This document shows, piece by piece, positions 983 through 6,074 of a stretch of DNA of 6,074 nt. The stretch spans positions 5,270 through 11,343 of the forward strand of contig JABMDE010000068.1 in the NCBI GenBank assembly GCA_015904055.1. The letters are read 5' to 3'. The notes beneath the pieces were generated by a model, which saw only the letters and a list, made by a program, of their open reading frames with translations, was not told where the DNA came from and made no database searches. The DNA comes from Nitrospira sp. (GTDB taxonomy: Bacteria > Nitrospirota > Nitrospiria > Nitrospirales > Nitrospiraceae). The number at the start of each line of letters is the position of its first letter. Within the stretch, counting starts at the first letter, position 1. The position numbers were made by a program, and so were the translations under genes.

Positions 983-1864
983 TCACCTGAAGATCAATAA
1001 GACAACAACGCCGAGAATAATACGGTAGTACGCAAAGACACGCAAGGTGTGGCGTTGGACGTATGTCAGGAAGGCGGCGATCACAGCCCACGCGACCAGA
1101 AAGGAGATGATCATGCCGAGGCCGAGTGCCAGAAAGTCCTGGTCGGTAAATGTCCCTCTGGCTTTCCAGGTTTCGTAGACCGTCGCGGCGATGATGGTCG
1201 GGAGAGCCAGGAAGAACGAATATTCGGTGGCGACTTTTCGATCAAGCCCGGCCAGTAGACCGCCGATGATGGTTGACCCGGAGCGGGACATGCCGGGAAT
1301 GAGCGAGGCGCATTGTGCCAGGCCGATCCAGAAGGCCTGTTTCGGAGAGACTTGATCGAGGCTCATGGCCCGGCTGGTTTTTGCGGTGGCTTCAACGATG
1401 AGAATAATGATTCCGCCGAGAATAGACGTGGTGGCAACCGTGTGCGGCGTGAACAAGTGGGACTTGATCCAACCATGCGCCGCCAAGCCGACCAGGGCGG
1501 CTGGTAGAAAGGCTATGCCAAGCCCCAGCATGAACCACAGATTAGGATGGGCCTGTAGGGAGGCTTGGAGACATGCTGCCCAGGTCGGATGTTGGGTGTT
1601 GTGCAGGGAGGATCGAAACCCTGCCTGCTCTTGCCAGGCACCTGAGACCAGTCGCCCGATTTTCTCCCGTTCAAAGACGATGACGGCCAGGATGGCTCCC
1701 AGTTGAATGGAAATCTCTGCGTTTGCTGCCACGTCGCCGGTGAAGCCCAGCGCATAGCCGACCAGGATGAGATGTCCTGTGGACGAGACGGGCAAGAATT
1801 CAGTCAGCCCTTCCACGATGCCGAGGATGACGGCAAGAACAGGCCCCCATTCGTTCACAAGCAT
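983..1864 (-). CDS. uppP: Undecaprenyl-diphosphate phosphatase UppP/BacA (intact copy)
   Basis: This integral membrane enzyme dephosphorylates undecaprenyl diphosphate to the monophosphate lipid carrier used for peptidoglycan and surface polysaccharide export; overexpression classically gives bacitracin resistance. The 293-residue product is in the usual range of about 265-295. The first catalytic motif, EGLTEFLPVSSTGHL, is at residues 18-32 with E18, E22 and H31. The second, PGMSRSGST, is at 190-198 and includes R194. Many hydrophobic segments follow the BacA fold. Residues 75-105, between the first helices, form a polar insert that varies in the family. The start is ATG at 1862-1864, with only a weak GAAGG upstream. 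It heads a probable operon with the DUF2024 gene. Its first 99 codons are duplicated at 4191-4489, and this copy is the only complete one in the window. Confidence 0.97.
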   Translation of the reverse strand: MLVNEWGPVLAVILGIVEGLTEFLPVSSTGHLILVGYALGFTGDVAANAEISIQLGAILAVIVFEREKIGRLVSGAWQEQAGFRSSLHNTQHPTWAACLQASLQAHPNLWFMLGLGIAFLPAALVGLAAHGWIKSHLFTPHTVATTSILGGIIILIVEATAKTSRAMSLDQVSPKQAFWIGLAQCASLIPGMSRSGSTIIGGLLAGLDRKVATEYSFFLALPTIIAATVYETWKARGTFTDQDFLALGLGMIISFLVAWAVIAAFLTYVQRHTLRVFAYYRIILGVVVLLIFR

Positions 1865-1912
1865 GCCTTCGGGTTAGGATGGATGAGCATACGGTTGATC
1901 GGTTAACGAGCG

Positions 1913-1941
1913 ATCATCACAGAGCGATGGTATTCCGTCAA
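1913..1941 (-). promoter_or_regulatory. Candidate uppP promoter
   Basis: On the minus strand, TTGACG (1936-1941) is followed after 17 bases by GATGAT (1913-1918), about 49 bases before the uppP start codon. The -35 is a 5/6 match and the -10 a 4/6 match to the sigma-70 consensus. Both boxes are unchanged in the duplicated copy. A short inverted repeat (tgatcg / cgatca, 1896-1901 and 1911-1916) overlaps the -10. The match may be chance, and the consensus for this phylum is not established here. Confidence 0.3.
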
Positions 1942-1996
1942 GCGCAGGATTGAATGGCGCGGCGAGTCTCGGTCACAGGTCGTGAGTGCAAATATG

Positions 1997-2025
1997 TTGA
2001 CAAAGAACGGATGTTGTCTTACACA
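1997..2025 (+). promoter_or_regulatory. Candidate promoter of lipoprotein copy 1
   Basis: A perfect TTGACA (1997-2002) is followed after 17 bases by TACACA (2020-2025), a 3/6 match to the -10 consensus; cacaat at 2022-2027 is an alternative with a longer spacer. The block is kept in the second copy with few changes. It lies about 110 bases before the start codon, giving a leader of roughly 100 bases. The remaining 1865-2137 intergenic sequence between the divergent uppP and lipoprotein genes holds no gene I can support. Confidence 0.35.
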
Positions 2026-2137
2026 CAATCAAAGGATTGATGCAGGCGGATAGACTATCCTGGGAAATATGCATAGAAAATCATGTCGATGCGTGCGCAC
2101 ATGCATTCACTGAGCATGTGAGGAAGAGGAGGATCGT

Positions 2138-2775
2138 ATGAGACGGGAGTGGATCGCAATCATGATGGCCGGGGCGATGCTGTCGGCGGGATGTGTGACC
2201 AATTGGAAAAGGTTCGTCAACAGAAGACCTCCATGGAGCAACAGATTCGCACGTTGAAAGAACTGAACGTGAAGTTCAGCAACGAAGCGCTTGCGGCGCG
2301 GGATGAGCTACAGCGGATTGAGCATGGCCGTGACAAGGAGCGGGGCTCGGTCGATGGACGGACGAAAGACCTGGAAGCGCAGCTCAAGGCGATGTCGGCA
2401 CAAAATCGCAATGTGCGGCAGGAATATCAGGATGTCAAACGCCACAATGACACCTTGAAGTCGTTGGTCGCACGGTATCAAAAGGAACTGAAAGACCGGT
2501 CGCATTCGGCATCGGCGGTAGTGACCCCCCCAGCAGCTGACGCAAAGGCCCCGGCCCCAACCGCTGCCGCTCCATCGGCCGGAACCTCTGCCGCGATGAA
2601 CATCAACCGGGTGTCTGCGAGCGATCTGGTGTTATTCTTGGGGCTGAAGCAGGAGGAGGCCGATCGTATCGTGAGCAATCGCCCCTATCGTGTAAAGGGA
2701 GAGTTGGTGGCGAAGAACGTTGTGCCCAAGGAGACGTTCGACTTGATCAAGGATCGGATCTCTGTCAGCCAATAG
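2138..2775 (+). pseudogene. Coiled-coil/HhH lipoprotein, copy 1, frameshifted by a 49-bp deletion
   Basis: This is the first copy of the lipoprotein gene at 4769-5455. The ribosome binding site AGGAGG (2127-2132), the ATG at 2138 and the signal peptide with lipobox LSAGC (C19) are intact. After gaccaa at 2197-2202 the sequence jumps directly to ttggaaaa, missing the 49 bases at 4834-4882 of the other copy. Because 49 is not a multiple of 3, translation from the true start leaves frame and stops at TGA 2255-2257 after 39 residues, ending in a basic tail. The original frame stays open to TAG 2773-2775 and encodes the coiled coil and the helix-hairpin-helix end. It can be reached only from a GTG at 2149 or internal ATGs without a convincing ribosome binding site, and such a product would have no signal peptide. 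I call it a recent pseudogene. A frameshift-made or cytoplasmic product is possible but unsupported. Confidence 0.85.
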
Positions 2776-4657: not shown

Positions 4658-4768
4658 CAACCAAAGGACTGAAGCAGGCGGATAGACTACCGTGGGAAAT
4701 GTGAATAGACGTCATGTCGATGCGTGCGCACACGCATTCACTGAGCAGGTGAGGAAGAGGAGGATCGT

Positions 4769-5455
4769 ATGAGACGGGAGTGGATCGCAATCATGATGGC
4801 CGGGGCGATGCTGTCGGCGGGATGTGTGACCAACTCGCAGTACCAGGAGGCGTTGACGGAAGCCGATACGGCCCGAGAAGAATTGGAAAAGGTCCGTCAA
4901 CAGAAGACCTCCATGGAGCAACAGATTCGCACATTGAAAGAACTGAATGTGAAGTTCAGCAACGAAGCGCTTGCGGCGCGGGATGAACTGCAGCGGATTG
5001 AACATGGCCGCGACAAGGAGCGGGGCTCGGTCGATGGGCGGACAAAAGATCTGGAAGCGCAGCTCAAGGCGTTGTCGGCGCAGAGTCGCAATGTGCGGCA
5101 GGAATATCAGGATGTCAAACGCCACAATGACACCTTGAAGTCGTTGGTGGCACGGTATCAAAAGGAACTGAAAGACCGGTCGCATTCGGTGTCGGCGATG
5201 GTCGTCCCTCCGGCGGCTGAGGCAAAGGCTCCAGCCCCATCCGTTGCCGCTCCGTCGGCCGGAACGTCCGCTGCGATGAACATTAATCGGGTATCGGCGA
5301 GCGATCTGGTACTGTTCTTAGGGTTGAAGCAGGAGGAGGCCGATCGTATCGTGAGCAATCGCCCCTATCGCGTGAAGGGGGAGTTGGTGGCGAAGAACGT
5401 CGTGCCCAAAGAGACGTTCGACTTGATCAAGGACCGCATCTCGGTCAGCCAATAA
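4769..5455 (+). CDS. Coiled-coil lipoprotein with C-terminal helix-hairpin-helix (ComEA-like) domain, intact copy
   Basis: The 228-residue product starts with a short signal peptide (RRE, a hydrophobic core and lipobox LSAGC with C19), so it should be lipidated, cut by LspA and held at a membrane facing the periplasm. Residue V20 after the cysteine does not give the classic inner-membrane retention Asp. Residues about 24-136 are highly charged and heptad-like, a long coiled coil with RQQ/KEL-type repeats. Residues 140-169 are an Ala/Pro-rich linker. Residues 170-228 begin MNINRVSASDLVLFLGL and continue EEADRIVSNRPY and KGELVAKN, following the NIN-A-eL-LpGi-A-I-yR-eL pattern of ComEA-like HhH domains. 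The second hairpin glycine is replaced (GLKQEEA rather than GIGxxxA), so DNA binding is uncertain. The start is ATG 4769 with AGGAGG (4758-4763) 5 bases upstream. The function is unknown; the envelope location is inferred. Confidence 0.9.
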   Translation: MRREWIAIMMAGAMLSAGCVTNSQYQEALTEADTAREELEKVRQQKTSMEQQIRTLKELNVKFSNEALAARDELQRIEHGRDKERGSVDGRTKDLEAQLKALSAQSRNVRQEYQDVKRHNDTLKSLVARYQKELKDRSHSVSAMVVPPAAEAKAPAPSVAAPSAGTSAAMNINRVSASDLVLFLGLKQEEADRIVSNRPYRVKGELVAKNVVPKETFDLIKDRISVSQ

Positions 5456-5487
5456 AACGTGCCGGCCATCAGCCGGGCGATCTGTTT

Positions 5488-5520
5488 GGGCCGTCCTCTT
5501 TCTGGAGGACGGCCCTTTTT
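5488..5520 (+). terminator. Intrinsic terminator after lipoprotein copy 2
   Basis: gggccgtcctc (5488-5498) pairs with gaggacggccc (5505-5515) around a 6-base loop and is followed by five T. The stem is the same as in copy 1 although the loop and the bases before the stem differ, so pairing has been kept. It starts about 30 bases after the stop codon. Confidence 0.88.
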
Positions 5521-5632
5521 CTTTCTTATGGCCCCATGACGATGTCCACAACAAGCTGATCCGAGGACAGATCCCGGTTCATGGCAGTACTCACCGAGTT
5601 GAGCGATGATTGCAGTCCGTCGTTCTTGCAGA

Positions 5633-6074
5633 TTATCGGCTATGTTGCGCCACAATGTCGCCGAGTGAGCGGAAGCCAAGTCCGAGTCCCCTGCAGACCT
5701 CAACCTGGCGGTCGAACCGGTTCTTCGTACGGATCATCTTCCACATTGTGCCGAGTCCCACGCGCCCCCAGGCAGCCAGATGGAAGACGGACAGGGGATA
5801 GTCGGTGCCGAACAGCAGCCGATCTTGCACCTCGGGATGTTTCCGGAGGTGTAACAGCATGCGGAGGCGATTGGGCAATGTCAGCGCAGAAATATCGGCG
5901 TAGAAATTCGGATAGCATTTCGTGAATTTGTGGAAGGTGGGGATAAATTTTTCATAGAGCATCAGGCCGTAGCTACAGGCATGGGCGGCGATGACGGTGA
6001 CGCCTTCGTCCAGCGCGGTGTGGAGCCGGTCTGGATCTCCAACTGATTGATCCTTGCCGATCAGGCTGAATTCA
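5633..6074 (-). CDS. Amidohydrolase family protein, copy 2 (5' part beyond the window)
   Basis: This is the C-terminal 146 residues of a second copy of the amidohydrolase at 2955-3938, starting at the residue matching E182 and open to the window edge, with stop TAA at 5633-5635. The AAHAC and LLFGTDYPL motifs are both kept. By hand alignment there are 21 base differences in 442 bp and only about five amino-acid changes: E230K, A232T, R234C, H297R and L322V in copy 1 numbering. No frameshift or stop is seen, so this copy may be functional; the N-terminal HxH motif lies outside the window. Confidence 0.85.
   Translation of the reverse strand, partial: EFSLIGKDQSVGDPDRLHTALDEGVTVIAAHACSYGLMLYEKFIPTFHKFTKCYPNFYADISALTLPNRLRMLLHLRKHPEVQDRLLFGTDYPLSVFHLAAWGRVGLGTMWKMIRTKNRFDRQVEVCRGLGLGFRSLGDIVAQHSR

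Follow-up and report, generated by a model that had tools for sequence, protein, structure and literature searches.

Two 92% identical copies of an uppP–amidohydrolase segment meet at a single seam in a Nitrospira contig

How does a short piece of a bacterial genome come to hold the same genes twice in direct order when the two copies are only 92% alike? The question is raised by a 6,074-nucleotide stretch of a Nitrospira contig (JABMDE010000068.1 of assembly GCA_015904055.1, positions 5,270 to 11,343 of the forward strand), referred to here as the window. It contains two copies of a segment that begins within uppP, the gene for undecaprenyl-diphosphate phosphatase, and continues through a lipoprotein gene and an amidohydrolase gene toward the 3' end of a ligase gene. 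By self-comparison, the first copy occupies positions 1566–4190 (2625 bp). The second begins immediately after it at 4191, where the gene order restarts inside uppP, and runs off the window at 6074 within the second amidohydrolase gene. The initial annotation of this sequence had described a direct tandem repeat of ~2.6 kb with exactly these limits. Positions 1566–3396 and 4191–6074 are 92.3% identical, with 140 mismatches in 1827 aligned columns, and the BLAST E-value of 0.0 rules out chance similarity. We favor the reading that the copies are alleles from two lineages that were joined at one seam, either by recombination between strains or in a chimeric assembly, rather than a recent self-copy.

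The seam lies at 4190/4191. On the minus strand, the last 42 codons, out of about 1130, of an acyl-[ACP]--phospholipid O-acyltransferase/ligase gene (4060–4190) abut the first 99 codons of uppP (4191–4489). Sequence to the left of the seam aligns with the 3' end of the ligase gene at two loci of relatives, L004 (4077–4190, 93% DNA identity) and L001 (4077–4188, 85%), and sequence to the right aligns with the interior of uppP, confirming that both genes are truncated where they meet. The ligase assignment comes from L004, where the open reading frame (ORF) encodes 1129 aa and the last 490 aa match NF006386 with 686 bits, under the whole-protein cut-off of 1221. The initial annotation had also remarked that no long repeat lies at the junction, and this is borne out. 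With L004 as a stand-in for the ligase parent, the longest word common to the ligase and uppP sequences within 120 bases on either side of the break is 8 bp and lies away from the seam; at the seam itself at most 1 bp could be shared, relatives again standing in for the donor flanks. Direct copies side by side, meeting at one new seam where the gene on either side is cut short, are what a simple recent tandem duplication produces, but the copies of such a duplication would be identical or nearly so. Nor does the seam have the long shared word expected at the join of an inter-strain chimeric contig. A working uppP–ligase fusion can be dismissed: in ORF 4082–4489 (which matches PF02673 at 4e-22), the frame of uppP is not that of the ligase codons, and the 36-residue tail of this ORF has no match better than E 0.12 among the 120 listed of 6494 homologs.

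In relatives, these genes occur singly. Loci L001–L051 encode relatives of the window amidohydrolase, and 49 of the 51 are assigned to Nitrospira, Nitrospiraceae, Nitrospirales, Nitrospirae or Nitrospirota, the exceptions being L048 (Elusimicrobia) and L051 (Aquabacterium). L051 was excluded from the locus-order and residue comparisons (n = 50), and tblastn matches shorter than 35 residues or below 45% identity were dropped from the comparison of locus order. Each of the 50 loci has a single amidohydrolase match and 48 have the ligase. The series lspA–DUF2024–uppP–lipoprotein–amidohydrolase–ligase is found in seven (L001–L004, L024, L029 and L047), with each gene present once, as the initial annotation had predicted for the single-copy order; with seven cases in 50, the whole order is therefore not general among these loci. 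Extra DNA interrupts the series in L002 and L004, the ligase of L001 is cut by a contig end, L027 has a partial lipoprotein gene at the end of the locus, and the other 42 loci have no uppP or lipoprotein gene within the fetched stretch. The extra DNA of L004 (within 7457–13000) holds three ORFs (201, 341 and 214 aa) that separate the ligase from the amidohydrolase and two (190 and 467 aa) that separate the amidohydrolase from the lipoprotein gene. Judged by eye, these resemble genes for phospholipid synthesis and sigma factors; neither the window nor L001 has space for such ORFs.

Genomes of the genus give the same picture of single copies. Among 79 of them, we found no second lipoprotein or amidohydrolase gene apart from the cases of G012, G033 and G063, where a partial or second match lies on a separate contig, and a duplication common to relatives can be set aside, as none appeared among the family genomes, loci and genus genomes searched. 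The amidohydrolase (E up to 1e-60) is present in 67 of the 79, once in 66 and twice in G063, where the second match opens a 3028-base contig that shares 86.8% identity over 2845 columns with the region around the first. In G046, uppP occurs on two contigs that are 92.7% alike over 722 bases. Both G046 and G063 look like strain mixtures at the uppP–amidohydrolase locus. Internal stops interrupt the lipoprotein gene in 1 of 70 matching genomes and the amidohydrolase gene in 6 of 67 (G034, G038, G039, G041, G056, G065 and G078 taken together); they may represent either occasional gene loss or sequence errors.

Divergence between the two copies in the window is uneven. With gapped columns and codons set aside, here and in the site counts, the synonymous divergence (dS) between copies is 0.21 for the uppP stub, 0.40 for the lipoprotein gene and 0.17 for the amidohydrolase part, and the copies differ from L004 by 0.34–0.42, 0.32–0.50 and 0.49, respectively. 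The ratio of nonsynonymous to synonymous divergence (dN/dS) between copies is 0.06 for the lipoprotein and 0.09 for the amidohydrolase. Informative sites that group the copies together, copy 1 with L004, or copy 2 with L004 number 15:11:15 from uppP through the lipoprotein region, comprising 6:2:3 in uppP, 2:3:3 in the intergenic stretch, 7:3:9 in the lipoprotein gene and 0:3:0 behind it. The picture is that of a mosaic, in which the lipoprotein distance appears species-like and the amidohydrolase appears nearer. A few residues of copy 2 have no counterpart in the homologs compared: lysine 230 of the amidohydrolase is absent from all 50, and neither valine 141 nor methionine 144 of the lipoprotein appears in the 14 that were aligned, the best of 120 listed. 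Methionine 102 in the copy 1 lipoprotein is likewise unmatched. In the 5' half of the copy 1 amidohydrolase (3401–3800), identity is 70–80% to L004 and 89–90% to L001, the reverse of most flanking sequence, which may be a sign of recombination between Nitrospira lineages at this locus.

Residues in uppP bear on when the copies diverged. We aligned 120 listed UppP homologs of other strains (P numbers). Residues K82, F86, S89 and S96 of the stub (the copy 2 allele) occur together in the full-length UppPs P0001, P0005 and P0006, and S86 and A96 of the copy 1 UppP are present in P0002–P0004, P0020 and the UppP of L004. P0001 differs from the intact UppP of the window at six residues; five of these are the residues of the stub and the sixth is H100, also the residue read in copy 2 at the seam. 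Isoleucine 12 of the stub is absent from P0001 but present in the fragment P0253 and in some more distant homologs. From these alignments we favor the existence of two standing UppP allele classes.

The number of changes in the stub points the same way. The stub and copy 1 differ at 21 positions, 14 synonymous and seven nonsynonymous. When sorted to branches with L004 and L001, five synonymous and six nonsynonymous changes fall on the stub branch, and nine synonymous and one nonsynonymous on that of copy 1. Eleven changes in 297 sites on the stub branch, as against nine synonymous changes in 77 sites on the copy 1 branch, are fewer than a nonfunctional fragment of the same age should carry (P 0.012), and a count limited to sites where both outgroups agree gives 8 versus 7 (P 0.021). 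Setting aside the five nonsynonymous changes shared with P0001 leaves one nonsynonymous change in six (P 0.010). Although the numbers are small, the low count and the allele classes together favor divergence before the seam; because the stub shares residues with full-length UppPs and has accumulated too few changes, the two copies probably diverged before they were joined. A simulation in which a neutral stub carried all 21 differences (seven or fewer nonsynonymous changes in 0 of 2000 runs) was discarded as an invalid control because part of the changes belongs to the branch of the intact copy.

The two copies also differ in the state of the lipoprotein gene, which ends in a helix-hairpin-helix. 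In copy 1 (2138–2775, plus strand; start set by alignment to copy 2), a 49-bp deletion after about position 2200 shifts the frame, and the original frame beyond the deletion is open to the stop. The copy 2 gene (4769–5455, plus strand) is undamaged and encodes 228 aa, with homologs of up to 96% identity. Relative to L004, dN/dS is 0.05 for the remaining frame of copy 1 and 0.09 for copy 2. The break in copy 1 looks recent because the rest of its frame shows no loosened constraint. A lipoprotein match is present in 70 of the 79 genus genomes, and in 67 of these it is full-length and without internal stops; of the other three, the gene is partial in G054, has three internal stops in G034 and is divided between contigs in G033.

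Recombination between strains could account for these features as follows. Two alleles of one locus, each the sole copy in its own Nitrospira lineage, would first have diverged. A cell would then have taken up a ~2.6-kb piece of sister-lineage chromosome that starts within uppP and reaches the ligase 3' end, and the two ends of this fragment would have been joined without homology. A single homologous crossover in the shared locus would set the captured fragment beside the resident copy. The outcome would be a heterologous tandem merodiploid in which one seam is flanked by two dead stubs and the lipoprotein gene has a spare; one of the two lipoprotein copies would subsequently have broken. The direct tandem order fits a single fragment joined end to end. 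The broken copy 1 lipoprotein gene also argues for capture, as it lies where a spare exists, while nearly all matching genomes keep the gene whole. We tentatively prefer a cell-borne merodiploid of two single-copy alleles as the explanation, at a likelihood somewhat short of even. The broader proposition, that an uncultured Nitrospira keeps a heterozygous tandem and that end-joined environmental DNA enters the core genome of the genus as merodiploids whose spare genes then decay, is doubtful.

Capture of this kind has partial parallels. As described in PMC3784515, transformation of Streptococcus pneumoniae yields merodiploids whose tandem duplications span about 100 to 900 kb and are bordered by repeats. 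There, as in the window, a region stands twice in tandem, in the pneumococcal case after uptake of a DNA fragment; here uptake would be our inference, the unit is about 2.6 kb and the seam has no repeat. In the Escherichia coli system of PMC3240628, a PCR product indicating partial target duplication was obtained from 56 of 60 clones, 14 of which were sequenced, and the authors conclude that a single crossover with a circular molecule had occurred. One homologous and one non-homologous join would likewise be needed for the window. The same paper states that homology-facilitated illegitimate recombination (HFIR) generally gives a deletion and that most of its joins have 3–10 bp of microhomology; the window, unlike HFIR proper, shows neither. 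A literature search found no paper on tandem duplications in Nitrospira or on fragment circularization.

Several results weigh against a joining of two lineages, and in particular against one that took place in a cell. Of the 120 listed UppP homologs that were aligned, none combines all six residues of the stub. The six nonsynonymous changes among the 11 on the stub branch are compatible with neutral drift (P 0.19), their excess over the one in 10 on the copy 1 branch gives a Fisher P of 0.06, and a mixture simulation for the stub gives P 0.32. In uppP and the amidohydrolase, dS between the copies is lower than dS to L004, and informative sites in the amidohydrolase part divide 12:2:2, making the copies sisters there. 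At most 1 bp of microhomology at the seam compares poorly with the 3–10 bp of most HFIR joins in PMC3240628. The seam occurs in none of 175 family genomes, with four candidates scored per genome: a 200-base seam query matched 53 of them, and among the matches listed none crosses the seam by more than 6 bases. Nor does its out-of-frame tail occur in any of the 120 protein matches listed out of 6494. Finally, the window terminates after exactly 99 bases repeated from copy 1 (5976–6074, identical to 3298–3396); of the 129 exact runs that the copies share, this is the longest. Contig ends in an assembly graph can stop in a repeated stretch of this kind, and 99 corresponds to common assembly word sizes.

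These last points bear on the possibility, raised in the initial annotation too, that the tandem is an artifact and exists in no cell. Two coexisting Nitrospira strains, ~92% alike at this locus, may have been joined through a chimeric or circularized library molecule and a tangled assembly graph. The two UppP allele classes, the absence of the seam elsewhere, the end of the window in repeated sequence and the apparent strain mixtures in G046 and G063 would all fit such an origin. The review PMC7299287 describes chimeric metagenome contigs of related strains and links them to shared k-mers. Like these, the window ends in a shared stretch and may combine two related genomes in one contig, but it differs in having no shared k-mers at the seam. 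With no shared word longer than 8 bp near the seam, a misjoin through shared k-mers alone is unlikely, random ligation would seldom unite the same locus in direct tandem order, and one of the strains would need a broken sole lipoprotein gene, a state for which internal stops in only one of 70 matching genomes give little precedent. We regard an artifact of library or assembly as a real possibility, if one that falls below an even chance.

An old duplication in one lineage, in which the two copies stayed side by side on one chromosome and their identity fell to 92% as the uppP stub drifted, is unlikely. It would account for the tandem geometry, the drift-like changes in the stub, the sister relationship in the amidohydrolase part and the low mutual dS there and in uppP. 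Against it stand the shortage of changes on the stub branch for its age, the presence of stub residues in full-length UppPs of other strains, the lipoprotein dS of 0.40 with its 7:3:9 site pattern, and the single copies in the genus genomes.

With the joining of two lineages favored, the ~8% divergence probably dates the alleles rather than the seam. The initial annotation had called the tandem duplication a clear, datable event; the tandem repeat stands as an observation, but its interpretation is only partly supported, since copies that are 92% alike, with uneven dS, a stub whose residues occur in other UppPs and too few changes in that stub, do not bear out the dating. To that description we add that the copies are not nearly identical, that the copy 1 lipoprotein gene carries a 49-bp deletion, and that the window holds no more of the second amidohydrolase than its 3' part: neither the start of that gene, expected near 6616 from the 2678-base offset between the copies, nor a second ligase gene can be seen there. 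The event is of an ordinary kind, or an artifact. Should the tandem be genuine, it would offer a snapshot from nature of a foreign piece of core genome retained beside the resident copy before one of them is lost. Under either reading, it cautions against dating a duplication from copy divergence in a metagenome contig, as the alleles here are probably older than the seam.

The other genes of the window are assigned as follows. At the left edge, lspA, for signal peptidase II (3–545, plus strand; PF01252 at 1e-44 and TIGR00077), anchors the series and is present once in the window. It is followed on the minus strand by a DUF2024 gene (708–968), taken from an internal ATG of ORF 708–1091 on the basis of PF09630 (2.2e-23 on ORF residues 47–125) and the order of neighbors in relatives, and by the intact uppP (983–1864, 293 aa; PF02673 at 2.1e-77 and NF001389). 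The copy 1 amidohydrolase (2955–3938, minus strand) is intact, with 327 aa and a match to Amidohydro_2 (PF04909, 1.9e-13), and 146 codons of its copy 2 counterpart (5633–6074, minus strand) were placed by ORFs and pairwise alignment. The DNA of the window is nearest to L004 and L001, and most likely represents a piece of the chromosome of a nitrite-oxidizing Nitrospira. A plasmid origin was rejected, as the 11 plasmid records matched cover at most 4% of the window.

Two intergenic stretches have features of their own. The one 3' of lspA (545–685) forms a long predicted hairpin (RNA fold z = −4.2 versus 200 shuffles) and has many dispersed relatives in the Nitrospira genomes G001–G005, mostly G002 and G001 among the matches listed; it looks like a member of a dispersed intergenic repeat family. 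Between the amidohydrolase and the ligase fragment (3965–4075) are repeated AGGACTGAG-like units and an inverted repeat; parts of this stretch recur elsewhere in G003 and G005.

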